Below, piece by piece: positions 41,836 through 49,147 of a stretch of DNA of 55,264 nt. This stretch comes from Helicobacteraceae bacterium. GTDB lineage: Bacteria; Campylobacterota; Campylobacteria; Campylobacterales; Sulfurimonadaceae. The stretch lies in the NCBI GenBank assembly GCA_013138865.1, contig WTBY01000046.1, forward strand, positions 1 to 55,264, read 5' to 3'. The first letter of the stretch is position 1. Each line of letters starts with the position of its first letter. The position numbers and the translations under genes were made by a program. Below the pieces are notes generated by a model, which saw only the letters and a list, made by a program, of their open reading frames with translations, was not told the DNA's origin and ran no database searches.

Positions 41836-42504
41836 TTAAACTATTTTATAACCAACTGAGTAGCAAGAAGTTATAAACTTTTTTGTAGTCTTTTTACGAA
41901 GTCTTTTTACGAGTGATGTGATCGCATCTTGTGAAAATTCTTCTAGATCGTATATGTAGTTATGAAGCTCCTCATAAGGCACACATTCATTTGTTTGTTT
42001 AAATAAACACTCTACTAAAAGAGTCTCATAGTTACTCATGCTTACAACTTTTTTATCTTCATTATACAGAGTTTTATTTGTAGAGTCCCAACAATAAGAA
42101 CTTTTTAAAAGTGTCACATCACTATCTTTTACTCTTTGTATAGCTTTTGTGATCGCACTGTCTAGTTTGTCAATGTTAAATGGTTTTAGTAGATATGTCA
42201 GCAAATTAAGCTCTGTTGCTTGAATTAGATAGTCTATATTTGAGTGTGCTGTAAGTATTATAATCTGTGTCTCATTATCTCCTGATCGGATCTGTTTAAT
42301 AAACTCAAAACCATCTACATGAGGCATGTTAATATCTGTTAAAATGATATTTGGGCTATATTTTTTATAGAGCTCATAACCTTCTTTACCATCACCTGCT
42401 TTATAAACTACATCACAAAAAAGAGATACATACTCTGCTAGTTTTGACTGTATATCAGACTCATCTTCTACTATTAAAATTTTTATTTTTATGAAATTAT
42501 TCAT
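41836..42504 (-). CDS. OmpR/PhoB-family response regulator
   Basis: A regulator of 222 residues from the ATG at 42504. The receiver domain has IKILIVEDESDIQSKLAEYV, phospho-Asp in IILTDINMPHVDGF, IIILTAHS and the Lys of LLKPFN. A C-terminal winged helix follows (SNYETLLVECLFKQTNECVP, DAITSLVKRLRKKT, SCYSVGYKIV). A frame from GTG at 42543 is open, but those codons hold a direct-repeat box and a -10. The promoter predicts a start exactly at the ATG (leaderless), while the GTG could serve messages read through from the kinase gene upstream. Confidence 0.9.
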   Translation of the reverse strand: MNNFIKIKILIVEDESDIQSKLAEYVSLFCDVVYKAGDGKEGYELYKKYSPNIILTDINMPHVDGFEFIKQIRSGDNETQIIILTAHSNIDYLIQATELNLLTYLLKPFNIDKLDSAITKAIQRVKDSDVTLLKSSYCWDSTNKTLYNEDKKVVSMSNYETLLVECLFKQTNECVPYEELHNYIYDLEEFSQDAITSLVKRLRKKTTKKFITSCYSVGYKIV

Positions 42505-42510
42505 AATAGA

Positions 42511-42542
42511 ATTGTATTTAAACATATTGTCAAACTTTGTCA
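42511..42542 (-). promoter_or_regulatory. Direct-repeat box and -10 of the response regulator gene
   Basis: On the minus strand TGACAAA begins at 42542 and TGACAA begins at 42532, a 10-bp period. Sixteen bases from the second repeat start lies TACAAT (42511-42516). The same layout recurs at 45329-45360 and 49116-49147. In PhoB/OmpR-type promoters such repeats replace the -35 element, so this suggests autoregulation. Confidence 0.65.
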
Positions 42543-42543
42543 C

Positions 42544-45072
42544 TTAGCTTTTTATTGTAAAAAGTGCACCATCTTTTGTATTTTGCACATCTATTTTACC
42601 CTCCATATTGTTTTCTATAATCATTTTTGCTATATATAGTCCTAGACCTGTCCCTTCACTTTGGTGCTTTGTTGTAAAATATGGCTCGAAAATTCTATCT
42701 ATGATTTTTTCATCTATTCCACCACCTGTGTCACTAATACTTAAAACTATTTTGTTTGTTCTAGTTGCACTTATGTCAATCTTTTTAAGCTTTTTAGACT
42801 CTAAAATAGCGATTGAGTTTGAGATAATAGAGATCACAACTTGCACATACTCATCTTTAAAACCATCTATTGTGTAACTTTTATCAACATCAACATTCAC
42901 TTTTATAGCACTTTTATAAAGCAAGTTATTTACGATTGAGAGTGCTTTATTTACGGCTTCATTTACATTAAACTTCTCTTTTATCTTATTTGGTCTAAAG
43001 TATGTCAAGAAGTCTTCGATCGTTTGCGACATATATAGTGTACTACTTTGTATATTTGCAATCTGTTTTTTAAACTCATCTTCACTTAGTCTATTTTGCA
43101 ATCGCTTATGTTTTAAAATACCTAAACATAAATTTACAACAGAGAGAGGTTGTCTCCATTGATGAGCAATATTGCCTACCATCTCTCCCATATTTTGCAT
43201 TTTTGACTTCTGTGTTAAAAGCTCATTTGTTCTCTCTCTTACTTTCTCGTCTAGTTTTTCATTAATCTCTTGCAAATCTTTTGTTTTTTTATCTACTAAT
43301 ATGTTTAGTTGTCTGTTGAGCCTACTTAATATAAACTCTCTATAAAAAAGAAAAATAATAACTCCTAACATTAAGAGTCCAACATATATGGCGATCGTAT
43401 AGTCTACGATCTCAGCAAAATCTATTTTAACCCATCTATCTAAAATATTTTGTTTCTCTTTTTCACTTATTTGCTGTATTGCCTTATTTAAAACTATTGC
43501 CAAAATAGGTTCATCACTTCGACTTGCGATCGCTAACTCCACACTATGATCAAACTTTCCAGAGATCGCTACTGTACCTAAGTGATTAGTTTGAATATTG
43601 TAGTTAATTACGATCGAGTTATCAAGATAACCCCATATTTCACCATTTTCAACTTTTCTTAGACCATCATGAATAGACTCAACCTCTACCAAGTTAATAT
43701 TTGGATAATCTTTTTTCAACTCTTCATGTAAAGAGTAGCCCTTAACCACACCTAGTTTTTTATGGCTAACTTGAGCTAAAGAATCTATAAATGGTACACC
43801 AATTTTTGTAGCTATCACTATAGGAGTAACTATATAAGCTGAACTAAAGTCCATAAATTCTGATCGCAGATCTGTTTTTGAAGCAAGTGAAAATATGTCA
43901 CACTCTCTACTTTTCGCTTTTGTTATAGACTCACTCCAACTAGATGTTTGTACTAGCTTTACAGGAGTATCTATAATGTTGCTTACTAATTGTATTAACT
44001 CTTGTGAAATACCTATATGTTTACCATTCTCTATTTTCTCAAACGGCATCCAGTCGGGATCCACACATATACTTATGAACTTTTTCTTCTTTAAGTACTC
44101 TCTCTCTTTTTTTGTAAGAAATGCTTGTTTAGTAACTTTATATATAAACTCATCATAATCAATTCTGTTCTTTGTAAGCCCCATAAGGTTGTAAACACCA
44201 TAAATACTTTTTACTCTATCCTTCTCTATTAAACCCAACTCAGTTGTATTCAAGTAAGCTAACTCTTTTTCTATGTTCGCTTCAAAAAGCAACGCACCAT
44301 AAGTTCTATTTTGTGTATTGTATTTCTTTAAAATAACTTTTACACTCTCGTCTATATGAGAGAGTGCATACTCCCACCCTTTTAGCGAAGCAGACCTAAA
44401 TGCTTCAACTCTTTGAGGGTGATCTTTTAGCTCTTTTGCAGACGTAAAGAGGATCAGATCATAAAAGTCAAACCCATACTCTTTAGGATCCCAAATATCA
44501 TATTCGATCCCTTTTTCTACTAAAGCGTAAGGCTCATTTGAGCTATAACCAGAGAACAGATCAGTTTTTCCATCTATAAGATCTTGTATATCAAAAGTGT
44601 GTTCTACTCGTGTTATGTCATCTTTACTTAGACCATTAGCTTGTAACATTGAGGTAAACACAGATGAACCAGTTGCGTTTGTATTGATCATTATTTTTTT
44701 GTTTTTAAAGTCTTTAATAGATCGAATTCCTGAACTTTTAAGCGATATTAGAACATGAGGAGAAGATTGAAAAATAGCACTTAGTAAAACTATATTTTTT
44801 GAGTTGGCTTTTTCTAAAATAAGGTTAGAGTAGTTGATCCCAAAAGTACTTTTAGCTTCAAGAACATCTTTAACTATATCAGTACCAAGTTCAAACTCAA
44901 CTAAATCAACATCAAGTCCAACATCTTTATAAAAACCTAACTCTTTTGCCATAAAAAAACCAGCAAATTCAAACTGATTTTTCCAGTGAAACTGTAGTGT
45001 CACTTTTTCTAACTCTTTTGTTTGAGCTAAAGTGAACATCATAAGTAAAAATAGTTGTTGAAAAACTTTCAT
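42544..45072 (-). CDS. Hybrid-sensing histidine kinase with NMT1 and SBP3 periplasmic domains
   Basis: An 842-residue kinase. The start at 45072 gives a signal peptide (MKVFQQLFLLMMFTLAQTKE) with AAGGAA before it; a 28-codon longer frame is unlikely. Domains in order: NMT1/THI5-like binding protein (about 20-260; VTLQFHWKNQFEFAGFFMAK, GINYSNLILE), family-3 solute-binding domain (about 310-560; ISICVDPDWMPFEKIENGKH, GYLDNSIVINYN), membrane helix (about 570), coiled coil, H-box MGEMVGNIAHQWRQPLSVVN and ATPase (ISDTGGGI, GTGLGLYIAKMI). Its partner regulator follows at once. The ligand is unknown; NMT1 domains often bind pyrimidine- or sulfonate-like small molecules. Confidence 0.92.
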   Translation of the reverse strand: MKVFQQLFLLMMFTLAQTKELEKVTLQFHWKNQFEFAGFFMAKELGFYKDVGLDVDLVEFELGTDIVKDVLEAKSTFGINYSNLILEKANSKNIVLLSAIFQSSPHVLISLKSSGIRSIKDFKNKKIMINTNATGSSVFTSMLQANGLSKDDITRVEHTFDIQDLIDGKTDLFSGYSSNEPYALVEKGIEYDIWDPKEYGFDFYDLILFTSAKELKDHPQRVEAFRSASLKGWEYALSHIDESVKVILKKYNTQNRTYGALLFEANIEKELAYLNTTELGLIEKDRVKSIYGVYNLMGLTKNRIDYDEFIYKVTKQAFLTKKEREYLKKKKFISICVDPDWMPFEKIENGKHIGISQELIQLVSNIIDTPVKLVQTSSWSESITKAKSRECDIFSLASKTDLRSEFMDFSSAYIVTPIVIATKIGVPFIDSLAQVSHKKLGVVKGYSLHEELKKDYPNINLVEVESIHDGLRKVENGEIWGYLDNSIVINYNIQTNHLGTVAISGKFDHSVELAIASRSDEPILAIVLNKAIQQISEKEKQNILDRWVKIDFAEIVDYTIAIYVGLLMLGVIIFLFYREFILSRLNRQLNILVDKKTKDLQEINEKLDEKVRERTNELLTQKSKMQNMGEMVGNIAHQWRQPLSVVNLCLGILKHKRLQNRLSEDEFKKQIANIQSSTLYMSQTIEDFLTYFRPNKIKEKFNVNEAVNKALSIVNNLLYKSAIKVNVDVDKSYTIDGFKDEYVQVVISIISNSIAILESKKLKKIDISATRTNKIVLSISDTGGGIDEKIIDRIFEPYFTTKHQSEGTGLGLYIAKMIIENNMEGKIDVQNTKDGALFTIKS

Positions 45073-45379
45073 ATTTAGAGTTCCTTGTTTAGGTCGTATT
45101 ATACATAAAAAACTTATTTCTTTTTTACTTATTAGTAAAGTGACAAAGTATGACAACCATGGTGATGGTATTTACCTAGATCCTAATCTTGCACCTGATG
45201 TTAGTGTTGGTACAACATTTAAAAGTCTTGATAGTGAGACGACTACAACCCACCAACAAGCTCACTAACAGACCATAGAACAACAAGCTCTTTGTTAAGA
45301 AATATTGCATTTTGTCATAAAACGATAATGACAAACTTTGACAAAGTATTTTAGTACAATACATACATAAGGAAATAAT
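45073..45379. other. Intergenic region between kinase and lipoprotein genes
   Basis: The left side has a minus-strand -10 (TATAAT, 45098-45103) for the kinase gene. TGACAAAGTATGACA at 45141-45155 is a further copy of the direct repeat, in plus orientation but without a -10 at the usual distance. The frame from GTG 45140 to 45268 reads protein-like sequence (NHGDGIYLDPNLAPDVSVGT) and may be the stub of a lost gene. The right side is the promoter of the lipoprotein gene. Confidence 0.45.
45329..45360 (+). promoter_or_regulatory. Direct-repeat box and -10 of the lipoprotein operon
   Basis: TGACAAA at 45329 and again at 45339, then TACAAT at 45355-45360, exactly 16 bases after the second repeat start. 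An inverted copy TTTGTCA lies upstream at 45311-45317. The predicted start (about 45367) leaves a 13-base leader with TAAGGA before the ATG at 45380. Confidence 0.7.
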
Positions 45380-46543
45380 ATGAAACTTAATAAAAAGCTA
45401 ATAACTCTAAGTGTTGTAGTTACGATCGCACTAAGTGGTTGTGGTGGAAGTTCTACTTCTACTACTGAAAATACTGCTTACTATATAGACAATGCGGTAA
45501 GTGGTTTGAAGTGTACTTCGGGTACTACAACAACTACAACAGACTCAAGTGGTGCTTTTACTTATGAAGATGGAAAGACTACTAGCTGTAAAGTTGGTGG
45601 TATTACTCTTCCAACCATTCCAGTTATGACTTCTTCTGCACCCTATTACCAACTTCAAGATACAAAAAGTGCTATGTTGTTACACTCTCTTGATCATGAC
45701 AATGACTCTAGCAATGGAATTAGCATAGATCCAAAAGTTATTGATGCTATTAACAAAAAAGGAACTACTTCAGTACCTACAAACAGTAGTTCATTAGCTG
45801 ATCTAGTACAATATGTAGGAATTGCAGTTGGTTCAGACTTTAGAGGTCAGGTTAAAGATGAAACAGCTATAAACAAACATTTAGCAACGCAAGCAATACT
45901 CACGGACAAACTAAATAGTGATACTAAAGCAAACCTTGACGCATTAGGAAACGATCTATTTAACCAACCAGACAACGACGATACATGTGGTATTAGACAA
46001 GTTCTTTTTTGTAAAGATGTTTTAAATAAGAACTACTCTTATAGAGGTGACATACTTCCAGTATGGACACAGATGAGAACAGCGCAACTCACTAACTATA
46101 GTGCAAGTAGCTTACCTGCTAACTTCTCTTATGATGTACCAACAGTGTATACTCATACAGCAGTTCTTGCAGTAAACGGCGGACCAGAATCACTTCCTAG
46201 TAGTGTTGTAGAAATAGCACCATCACTAGGTTTAAAACTAGTTAACCTGTATGTTGATAAAAGTGCAGTCCAAACAATGTTTCCAATGGTAGATACTGAA
46301 ATAACACTAATAGATAAGTTTGCTTCAGTTACTACTAAAAGTTATAGTGTTAGTAGTAATGTAAGTGAAGTAATCACTAATCCTAATAGCTACTATATGA
46401 TTGTAATTAATAATGGTACACATTGGATCGGTGCAACTACAACAACTATCTATAATAGTCTAAATGCACATAAACAACCTTATGATGAGAAATACTTAAA
46501 TAGTGTTGAGTTTGGTGTTATTATGGAGTTTCAAAAAAAGTAA
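45380..46543 (+). CDS. Lipoprotein of unknown function in the putative regulon
   Basis: A 387-residue lipoprotein precursor: basic start, hydrophobic helix and lipobox LSGC followed by GGSSTSTT. Residues 33-80 look like a beta-sandwich opening (AYYIDNAVSGLKCTSGTTTT, SSGAFTYEDGKT) of the kind found in Campylobacterota surface lipoproteins. Several Cys occur in the middle (DDTCGIRQVLFCKDV). No domain is recognised with confidence. It has its own direct-repeat promoter and is followed by the decarboxylase-like gene after 57 bases. Confidence 0.75.
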   Translation: MKLNKKLITLSVVVTIALSGCGGSSTSTTENTAYYIDNAVSGLKCTSGTTTTTTDSSGAFTYEDGKTTSCKVGGITLPTIPVMTSSAPYYQLQDTKSAMLLHSLDHDNDSSNGISIDPKVIDAINKKGTTSVPTNSSSLADLVQYVGIAVGSDFRGQVKDETAINKHLATQAILTDKLNSDTKANLDALGNDLFNQPDNDDTCGIRQVLFCKDVLNKNYSYRGDILPVWTQMRTAQLTNYSASSLPANFSYDVPTVYTHTAVLAVNGGPESLPSSVVEIAPSLGLKLVNLYVDKSAVQTMFPMVDTEITLIDKFASVTTKSYSVSSNVSEVITNPNSYYMIVINNGTHWIGATTTTIYNSLNAHKQPYDEKYLNSVEFGVIMEFQKK

Positions 46544-46600
46544 TATTTAAAAAGTTAAGCCGTTATAAAATAAAAAATGAAAAATAAAAAAGGATAAAAA

Positions 46601-47728
46601 ATGAAAATATGGATGAAGCTACTAAAGGTTCTATTCGTTACTACTCTTATAACGAGTTCTATTTATGCAGATATGACAAAGAAGAGTTATGAAAGTGTTA
46701 TAACAAACTTAGAGAGTCTAATTAAGACAACACCAAATTTAAAAAATGACATAAAAAAAGTGTTGAAACTACAAAATAACCGATCATACTATTGGAATAA
46801 CAAAGATGTTAAATATTTTGTTAATTACTTCAAAGAGTGGCTTATCTTTAACCCAACACCATGGAATGGTCCAAAATATATACAACCATGGGATGCACTT
46901 GCTAACTCTGAAGGTAGTGAAATACTTTTTAACAACAATATTTTCAGCTCGTGGTTTATAGATTTTTTAAATGCTCGTGGTGAATATTTAAGAACAACAG
47001 AGTCCCTCTCAGGTGGAGTACTTAAAAATTGGGAAAGTTTTCCAGATGTTAAGCTCGATACTTTTAAACCACCTTATAACCAAAGTAGTTATGACTCTTT
47101 TGAAGATATATTTTTAAGAGTTCCAAAAAAAGAGTTTAATATTGCAGGTGAAAATGATGAGAGAGTCATAGTTTCACCAGCAAGTGGAAAAATTCATCAA
47201 ATATATTCTAAGACTCTTGACTCTAACTTTAAGATCAAAAGAGATGTACTTAATATTAGAGAATCACTTAACAATAGTGCATATTCACAAAAGTTTATTG
47301 GTGGAAAAATGGTTGATATTCTTTTATGGTTTACAGATTATCACTATTTTCACTCACCAGTTTCAGGTGAGATCGTGGATGTTGGTGAGTATGCAGGTTC
47401 ATACAACTATAACTTCCAAGATGTTGACTGGTATAAAGCGTTAGCTAAACATAAGCGTGTTTCTTACATTATTAAAACTAAAGAGTTTGGTTTAGTTGCC
47501 ATGATACCTGTTGGTTTTTGGGGTGTTGGATCAATTATTACAGATAAAAAAATAAAAAAAGGTTACAAGATTACTAAAGGCGAAAAAATTGGTCGTTTTG
47601 GTTATGGTGGATCTTCTATTTTACTAGTTTTTGAACCTAATGCCGTTAACTTCTCTATTGAAGATATTGACAAAGATTGGGAAGAAGTAAAAGTTGGTAC
47701 TCAAATTGGTATAGCTACTAAAAAATGA
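46601..47728 (+). CDS. Secreted phosphatidylserine decarboxylase-related protein
   Basis: A 375-residue protein with a signal peptide (LLKVLFVTTLITSSIYADMT). The C-terminal half follows the phosphatidylserine decarboxylase fold: FEDIFLRVPKKEFNIAGEND, VIVSPASGKIHQI, LWFTDYHYFHSPVSGEIVDV and RFGYGGSSILLVFEPNAV. The processing-site Ser (GGSS, residues 336-339) and His251 are kept, but the usual PADG Asp is Ser195. Normal enzymes are cytoplasmic-facing membrane proteins, so export is unusual. It may act on phospholipid or another carboxylate, or be non-catalytic. The ribosome site AAAGGA is strong. Confidence 0.85.
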   Translation: MKIWMKLLKVLFVTTLITSSIYADMTKKSYESVITNLESLIKTTPNLKNDIKKVLKLQNNRSYYWNNKDVKYFVNYFKEWLIFNPTPWNGPKYIQPWDALANSEGSEILFNNNIFSSWFIDFLNARGEYLRTTESLSGGVLKNWESFPDVKLDTFKPPYNQSSYDSFEDIFLRVPKKEFNIAGENDERVIVSPASGKIHQIYSKTLDSNFKIKRDVLNIRESLNNSAYSQKFIGGKMVDILLWFTDYHYFHSPVSGEIVDVGEYAGSYNYNFQDVDWYKALAKHKRVSYIIKTKEFGLVAMIPVGFWGVGSIITDKKIKKGYKITKGEKIGRFGYGGSSILLVFEPNAVNFSIEDIDKDWEEVKVGTQIGIATKK

Positions 47729-47817
47729 ATTTAAAGTTCTACTTATTTAGCATTATAAGTACGATCGTATTTACTGGTTGTCTAGGAGAAAATACTAACA
47801 AGAGTCCTAATTTTTAG
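47725..47817 (+). CDS. Tiny lipoprotein-like ORF (30 aa), probably truncated by frameshift
   Basis: The ATG overlaps the stop of the decarboxylase-like gene (ATGA). The frame reads MNLKFYLFSIISTIVFTGCL then GENTNKSPNF and stops, giving a complete lipoprotein signal with lipobox FTGC but almost no mature part. If one T of the five-T run at 47811-47815 is dropped, the frame would go on as LVSGVSGVVT and stop soon after. It is either a very small lipoprotein or the start of a decayed one. Confidence 0.4.
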   Translation: MNLKFYLFSIISTIVFTGCLGENTNKSPNF

Positions 47818-47863
47818 TTAGTGGTGTCTCTGGAGTGGTAACTTAAATTTATACCAGTATTTA

Positions 47864-49081
47864 TTAAAATGTTCCACTTGCCAGTTTACTTTTTTCAATT
47901 GGAATATCAATCGTAGGATTTGAAATATCATCACCAAAAACATCTAGTGCAAAACCAATATCTGCTGCAATTCCCATATAAAAATCCCAAATACTTGAAT
48001 CTGCTGAAAGTTCTATAAATGGATTAATACCTACACTTGGACCTGCTACATCATATACATCTAACACTAGTTCTATATTTGTTCCTGCATTAAAGTTTTC
48101 ACTTCCACTTAAAGTAGGTGCTGTGAAATTGTGTGTATTTACGGCGTCACCTGTAGTATGAGACCAGTTACTGTTACTATAAGCAAGTGTATATGATCTT
48201 TTATGTTCAACACTATATGATGTACTGACTTCTACAGAAATACTCTCACTAATTATTAAGTTTACAACTACATGAGGAACAAACACAACTGGAACTGGTC
48301 CAACTTGTACATCAAATGCATCTAAAGTATATGATGCAATTTCTACTTTTTTCTTCTGTGAAAATGTACCAGTCATAACAGCAGATAGCTCATATGTTAA
48401 ATCTGGTGTCGCTGTAAATGACATATTAATAGTATCTTCCCAGAACTCCCAATGTGAATTTATATTTGCATTCAAATTTATATCGAGGTTAAATTTTACA
48501 TTACCTGTAATAGTGGCACTTGAACCTCCTTCTGTAATTGTTTTAGATATATTTTCAGAAAAATTAAGAGTATTACCACTTGCGCTAACTACACTACCTG
48601 TTGCAACTACCTTACCATCCGTGACACCTTGTGCAAAGACAATTGAGTTTGGATTTCCTGGTGGTGCTAAGCGTTTCGTCATATTCAAATTTAAATCTTT
48701 AAAAAGATCTACTAAAGTTGCTTGTTCACCAATAACTACAATTTGATCTGTATATTCAGTTACGCCTATAACTTTCATTAATGAACCGTTAGGAGTTTTT
48801 ACTCCAATACCATGAACTATAATATCATCTACTTTTATATCAGATGCTTTTTGAGTTACTGCACTTGTTACGAGCATACTTTTTACTGTATCTTTTTTAT
48901 ATACAACTTCATACCTATCAAGAGAACCTGAGTGCACTATATGCTCATGCGTTATTATACTACTTACATCAACTACTTTTACATTATCATGTGCTACACC
49001 ACTTGCTGTATTATTACCACCACAGCCACTTAGACCTATAAATAATATAACCATAGATAGATAATATGTTATTATTTTCAT
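47864..49081 (-). CDS. Lipoprotein of unknown function, second regulon member
   Basis: A 405-residue lipoprotein precursor with lipobox LSGC followed by GGNNTASG. The body is beta-rich, with alternating Ser/Thr/Val strands (SATITGNVKFNLDINLNANI, TYELSAVMTGTFSQKKKVEI, SISVEVSTSYSVEHKRSYTL), suggesting an elongated surface or periplasmic beta protein. No family is recognised. AAAGGAAA precedes the ATG, and the promoter 28 bases further up carries the same direct-repeat box as the response regulator and first lipoprotein genes. Confidence 0.75.
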   Translation of the reverse strand: MKIITYYLSMVILFIGLSGCGGNNTASGVAHDNVKVVDVSSIITHEHIVHSGSLDRYEVVYKKDTVKSMLVTSAVTQKASDIKVDDIIVHGIGVKTPNGSLMKVIGVTEYTDQIVVIGEQATLVDLFKDLNLNMTKRLAPPGNPNSIVFAQGVTDGKVVATGSVVSASGNTLNFSENISKTITEGGSSATITGNVKFNLDINLNANINSHWEFWEDTINMSFTATPDLTYELSAVMTGTFSQKKKVEIASYTLDAFDVQVGPVPVVFVPHVVVNLIISESISVEVSTSYSVEHKRSYTLAYSNSNWSHTTGDAVNTHNFTAPTLSGSENFNAGTNIELVLDVYDVAGPSVGINPFIELSADSSIWDFYMGIAADIGFALDVFGDDISNPTIDIPIEKSKLASGTF

Positions 49082-49115
49082 AATTTTCCTTTATTGTGTA
49101 TATTTTGCTTAACTA

Positions 49116-49147
49116 ACTATAGTGAAACATTATGTCAAACTTTGTCA
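49116..49147 (-). promoter_or_regulatory. Direct-repeat box and -10 of the second lipoprotein gene
   Basis: On the minus strand TGACAAA begins at 49147 and TGACA begins at 49137; TATAGT occupies 49116-49121, again 16 bases from the second repeat start. Sequence and geometry equal those of the other two boxes although gene and strand differ. Confidence 0.7.

Follow-up and report, generated by a model that had tools for sequence, protein, structure and literature searches.

The 55,264-nucleotide contig WTBY01000046.1 of a Helicobacteraceae bacterium (assembly GCA_013138865.1; the whole stretch is called the window below) contains a two-component system next to genes for predicted lipoproteins, and three promoters of this cluster carry the same direct-repeat box. 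The regulator, RR1 (41836..42504, minus strand), consists of a receiver and a C-terminal winged helix. The receiver matched Response_reg (PF00072) with 92.3 bits (E=2.8e-26), and its translation contains a TDINMP motif and the phospho-acceptor aspartate; Trans_reg_C (PF00486) scored 33.9 bits against a cut-off of 26.2 and was also recovered by a genome-wide domain search. With both domains above their cut-offs, RR1 is of the OmpR/PhoB type, as a first-pass annotation of this DNA had proposed. Its score against the PhoB equivalog model TIGR02154 was 63.4 bits, far below the cut-off of 296.2. Directly upstream, across a 39-bp gap, lies the sensor kinase gene HK1 (42544..45072, minus strand), in which Pfam detected NMT1/THI5, SBP_bac_3, HisKA and HATPase_c domains and the translation shows the histidine box; the kinase thus does hold the two binding-type sensor domains ascribed to it in the first pass. 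The adjacency of the two genes suggests HK1 as the input to RR1. Related kinases found in a search of the genome contigs are 36-52% identical to HK1.

Two predicted lipoprotein genes lie beyond the kinase. Lp1 (45380..46543, plus strand) has an N-terminal part from a family of which this genome and relatives contain many members. Lp3 (47864..49081, minus strand) is present in a single copy in the genome and gave no family match in Pfam or NCBIfam; its AlphaFold model has a mean pLDDT of 32.5. Between them, 57 bp after Lp1, a gene for a secreted phosphatidylserine-decarboxylase-like protein (46601..47728, plus strand; PF02666, 117 bits) has no box of its own, and because of this and the short gap it probably belongs to the Lp1 operon. 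The closest solved sequences to this protein are PsiD-type L-tryptophan decarboxylases. Its N-terminal part is long, and GGSS occurs where the pyruvoyl site would be expected.

The window was searched for the pattern TGACAAAN3TGACAN11TANANT, with the chance level taken from shuffles. Three exact matches were found, at 42511-42542 (minus), 45329-45360 (plus) and 49116-49147 (minus); allowing two mismatches gave four matches against 0.15 expected. The sites read TGACAAAGTTTGACA-N11-TACAAT before RR1 (box 42528..42542, -10 at 42511..42516, minus strand), TGACAAACTTTGACA-N11-TACAAT before Lp1 (box 45329..45343, -10 at 45355..45360, plus strand) and TGACAAAGTTTGACA-N11-TATAGT before Lp3 (box 49133..49147, -10 at 49116..49121, minus strand). 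At every one of them the second TGACA begins 16 bp before the -10 hexamer, so that the earlier claim of one box at an identical distance from three -10 elements holds to the base. The same annotation had described the repeated word as TGACAAA; the period of 10 bp is indeed common to all three sites, but the downstream copy is TGACAAT before RR1, TGACAAA before Lp1 and TGACATA before Lp3, and TGACA is the sole part repeated at all of them. The RR1 box starts immediately past the kinase stop codon and occupies the gap between the two genes; therefore the regulator alone would be in the feedback loop. For the kinase gene, a candidate extended -10 (TGTATAAT) was noted at 45098..45103 (minus strand); it lacks a box at the spacing seen in the three promoters.

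Outside the window the box is rare. In the genome (3.03 Mb in 82 contigs, of which C14, C17, C36, C38, C41, C42, C51, C53, C57 and C64 are referred to here), TGACAAAN3TGACA has seven exact matches, four of them inside the window, and the reversed-pattern control has none. One of the other three precedes a paralogue of Lp1; the last two appear to be starts of coding genes (ATGACAAAY.TTGACA). The full pattern including the -10 has three exact matches, all in the window, and one with a single mismatch (C38:40216-40247), and at two mismatches genome-wide matches were no commoner than in controls. The C38 site precedes a lipoprotein 80% identical to Lp1, and the C-terminal part of Lp1 is known only here and in this paralogue. 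The coding DNA of the two genes is 82% identical and the boxes share 14 of 15 bases, whereas the 60 bases upstream of the box match at 17 positions, which is chance level, and the 30 downstream at 13; the box was therefore retained while its surroundings were not. A genome scan, suggested in the first pass as a check, thus returned non-random matches, and the sole new strong site lies before the paralogue of a predicted target. The regulon had been called local: three sites are clustered in the window, but in the strict sense the term fails, since the fourth is on C38.

Regulators of the OmpR/PhoB type occupy direct repeats in the form of tandem dimers (PMC4832192; PMC4415409), and direct repeats of 10-bp period stand at RR1's own and neighbouring promoters. 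Judging from these sequences, we consider it very likely that RR1 acts by class II activation on its own promoter, on Lp1 (probably together with the decarboxylase-like gene), on Lp3 and on the C38 paralogue, and that this system is one of several such modules. TGACAAAN3TGACA would be the RR1 operator, with two RR1 molecules bound head to tail, one per repeat, on the same helix face and at the -35 position. The box stands in place of the -35 element, 16 bp from the -10, at three promoters, and no good -35/-10 pair was found at Lp1 or Lp3; bound RR1 would recruit RNA polymerase to a -10 without a good -35, as in class II activation. A ligand sensed by the NMT1/SBP kinase would lead to phosphorylation of RR1, which would then switch on Lp3, the Lp1 paralogue on the other contig, and Lp1 itself along with the decarboxylase-like gene. 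It would also activate its own gene from the promoter in the kinase/regulator junction and so raise the regulator relative to the kinase. The regulatory mechanism itself is textbook for the OmpR/PhoB family.

The promoter spacing also bears on two other explanations of the boxes. The shared TTTGACA contains TTGACA, the sigma-70 -35 consensus, which each of the three second repeats matches exactly, and three ordinary promoters might resemble one another by chance or through promoter grammar. The distance from TTGACA to the good -10 is, however, 11 bp and not 16-18 bp. At N16-18 the best -10 matches three of six positions at Lp1 and two of six at Lp3 (four of six at N17 for RR1). An ordinary promoter would also leave the upstream first repeat, 10 bp away, unaccounted for, and it fits neither the rarity of the pattern in the genome nor the sister modules described below, which place words lacking TTGACA in the same position. 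We regard this explanation as very unlikely and rejected it, because the spacing fails at Lp1 and Lp3 and the other words go unexplained. A second explanation accepts RR1 as the ligand of the boxes but makes it a repressor that occupies the -35 region until a signal arrives, with negative autoregulation. The sites do overlap the core promoter, and OmpR-type regulators are able to repress from such positions. Yet Lp1 and Lp3 have no usable -35 in the absence of the regulator, and a repressor would not need the fixed phasing to the -10 seen at all three promoters; we consider repression improbable.

The boxes might also be genuine operators read by another regulator, for instance RR2 or a further OmpR-type protein, with RR1 merely one of its targets. 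The genome encodes 21 OmpR-type DNA-binding domains, and RR2, on contig C64, is 42% identical to RR1 and its sister in the tree (support 99/98). RR2 appears to read a near-identical word and may cross-bind. Its own promoter, which overlaps the last part of a kinase frame, reads TGCCAATAGTTGCCA-N11-TATAAT, and a lipoprotein gene on C57 is preceded by TGCCAAAAGTTGCCA-N11-TAAAAT, so that TGCCA is the word at both RR2-type sites. The words TGACA and TGCCA differ by one base per half-site, and the recognition helices of the two regulators by a few residues (SQDAITSLVKRLRKKT in RR1, SKGSLSSIVKRLRQKT in RR2). The kinase frame before RR2 (L087 1-250) is intact only in its last ~40 residues and by eye is not kinase-like further upstream; either the kinase of RR2 has been lost or the start of the C64 contig is misjoined, both of which are conceivable.

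Other regulators of the genome show the same arrangement. On C51, AAGAGACTGCAAAGAGAC-N10-TATAAT before the regulator and AAGAGACCACTAAGAGAC-N10-TACAAT before a lipoprotein gene share the word AAGAGAC and are its sole two exact sites in the genome, and a third C51 gene bears a related TGAGAC repeat; at two mismatches this word is mostly noise genome-wide (51 matches against 12 in the control). On C53, one word (given as GACGACTTTG, GACGACTTTGTGRYGACTT and GACGACTTTGTGRYGACTTKG) is common to a regulator, a DUF285 lipoprotein and a divergent S74 protein, with exactly three sites in the genome at up to three mismatches and none in the control. C14 has CTCCC repeats before a lipoprotein gene and a weaker form before the regulator, and the C17 regulator has TTTGCTACCAGTTTGCTAC. 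The six module regulators form, together with five others, one clade of the genome's OmpR-type regulators (support 96/97), and the true pairing of regulator and lipoprotein boxes scores highest of 120 pairings. That sister regulators have their own words at their own and at lipoprotein promoters supports the pairing of RR1 with its box. For every sister regulator, RR2 included, the promoter of the regulator gene bears a distinct word that recurs at its lipoprotein, and the RR1 gene itself sits among the TGACA sites; reading of these sites by another regulator is thus quite unlikely in our view. A TGCCAAAGTTTGCCA site on C36 was dismissed, as it lies inside a coding gene.

Promoters were also scored systematically for 7-mer repeats of period 10 or 11 before a -10 in upstream regions. 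A score of at least 8 was reached by 10 of 39 members of the lipoprotein family, 4 of 26 regulators and 13 of 587 other genes (Fisher p=1.7e-7 for lipoproteins). In relatives only, the figures were 6 of 33 lipoprotein promoters against 6 of 387 controls (p=1e-4). Other periods gave no comparable excess at the lipoprotein promoters of relatives (0/33 for 8/9, 1/33 for 12/13 and 0/33 for 14/15). The score was picked after the sites had been seen, and a fairer view of this comparison comes from the period control and from the relatives. In relatives as well, this lipoprotein family would thus often be under OmpR-type operators, with a different word in each case. Regulators in the 60 relatives are only ~40% identical, and their upstream regions showed no clear repeats bar a few, the excess being seen only at their lipoproteins. 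In one relative, G033 (L225), the regulator and its lipoprotein bear different words; adjacency alone therefore does not imply the pair.

Several observations weigh against class II activation by RR1 as the common scheme. A -10 at the RR1 site would put the start of transcription at about the RR1 ATG and give a leaderless mRNA (42504-42516), with no alternative start codon ahead of the receiver domain, and transcription from here may therefore be weak, or the promoter may be used in another way. The period of 10 bp is at the short edge for the OmpR/PhoB family. At the C38 paralogue, CATACT at the set distance makes a poor hexamer; TGTAAT, 11 bp further downstream, is better. The domain specific to Lp1 is kept in none of the 396 sampled genomes of the class, and no relative with the Lp1 gene set was found among them. 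Finally, the first sites were already known when the other modules were recognized and the score was chosen, and it was the box that served to match C57 with C64.

Among known systems, HP1043 (HsrA) of Helicobacter pylori has its own promoter among its targets and binds repeats that are spaced by one helical turn and adjoin the -10 on the upstream side (PMC5253667). It is thus similar to RR1 as an OmpR-type, self-targeting regulator of the same phylum with direct repeats one turn apart next to the -10. HP1043 differs in being an essential orphan with many housekeeping targets and no kinase or lipoprotein neighbours; RR1 has an adjacent kinase, and its word is not the TTTAAG of the HP1043 repeats with their 5-bp spacer. 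DccRS of Campylobacter jejuni also uses a different word, the direct repeat reportedly described by Wosten in 2010 being WTTCAC-N6-TTCACW over the -35, and we know of no NMT1/SBP kinase in that system. DccRS is an OmpR-type two-component system that activates a few genes for periplasmic or membrane proteins (PMC9449129), much as proposed here for RR1. In Sulfurospirillum, also of the Campylobacterota, the repeats bound by PceP, the OmpR-type regulator of the PceS/PceP system, overlap the -35 at several promoters close to one another, and self-activation has been proposed (PMC7755780). The RR1 system shares this layout but differs from PceS/PceP, with its 7-TM kinase and organohalide genes; the PceP operator CTATW-N17-CTATW has its outer pair two turns apart, whereas the RR1 box repeats TGACA with period 10. 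The Pho box likewise consists of tandem direct repeats, in 11-bp units, bound by a head-to-tail PhoB dimer (PMC4415409), although its word is CTGTCAT and its genes are phosphate genes. Mycobacterium tuberculosis PhoP binds a direct repeat as a tandem dimer, its recognition helix reading each 7-bp motif, with a strict 4-bp spacer and hence an 11-bp period (PMC4832192), against 10 bp at the RR1 and RR2 sites.

The gene set was not found described in the openly readable literature that we searched. To our knowledge there is no described precedent for this set, for the promoter inside the kinase/regulator pair or for a family of private words. Two-component regulons with autoregulation are common as single cases, and taken by itself the RR1 regulon would be nothing unusual; the value lies in the replication, within one clade and one genome, of a fixed promoter layout in which each regulator has a private word in common with lipoprotein genes of one family. 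We see about even chances that these are duplicated, insulated regulator-lipoprotein modules in which regulator and targets changed their word together, and that they switch alternative surface lipoproteins in response to different external signals. The arrangement makes testable the long-standing question of how duplicated regulators acquire separate DNA codes jointly with their targets. It also suggests that the operators, and hence the targets, of uncharacterised Campylobacterota regulators are readable from sequence, and it connects surface proteins with sensor kinases whose ligands are unknown.

Further features were noted in the window and in the genome. A fourth copy of the half pattern, TGACAAAGTATGACA (45141..45155, plus strand), has no -10 at the set distance and adjoins the remnant of a lipoprotein gene of the C57 type, located at 45141-45270 between the kinase and Lp1 (NHGDGIYLDPNLAPDVSVGTTFKSLDS, 67% over 27 aa, E=8e-11). 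This copy may have been left behind by recombination, or it may serve the kinase promoter as an upstream site. On C53 (L085 15169-15447), one 33-bp stretch from box to -10 is present, pointing outward, in both of the divergent promoters of the DUF285 lipoprotein and the phage-fibre-like S74 protein, as a near inverted repeat. For another NMT1/SBP kinase, on C42 (L090 2720-3622), a separate repeat, TGACACTGGGCTGACACT, stands ahead of a -10. PhoB-like regulators on C41 (L178, L180) have Pho-box-like repeats, GTAACCAAACCGTAACCAA and TTGTAATCAAGTTGTAAT, in the same geometry, and provide a useful internal control. Elsewhere on C53 (L085 2898-5102), the same lipoprotein N-terminal family is fused to a GH18 (chitinase-type) domain beside modABC-like genes.

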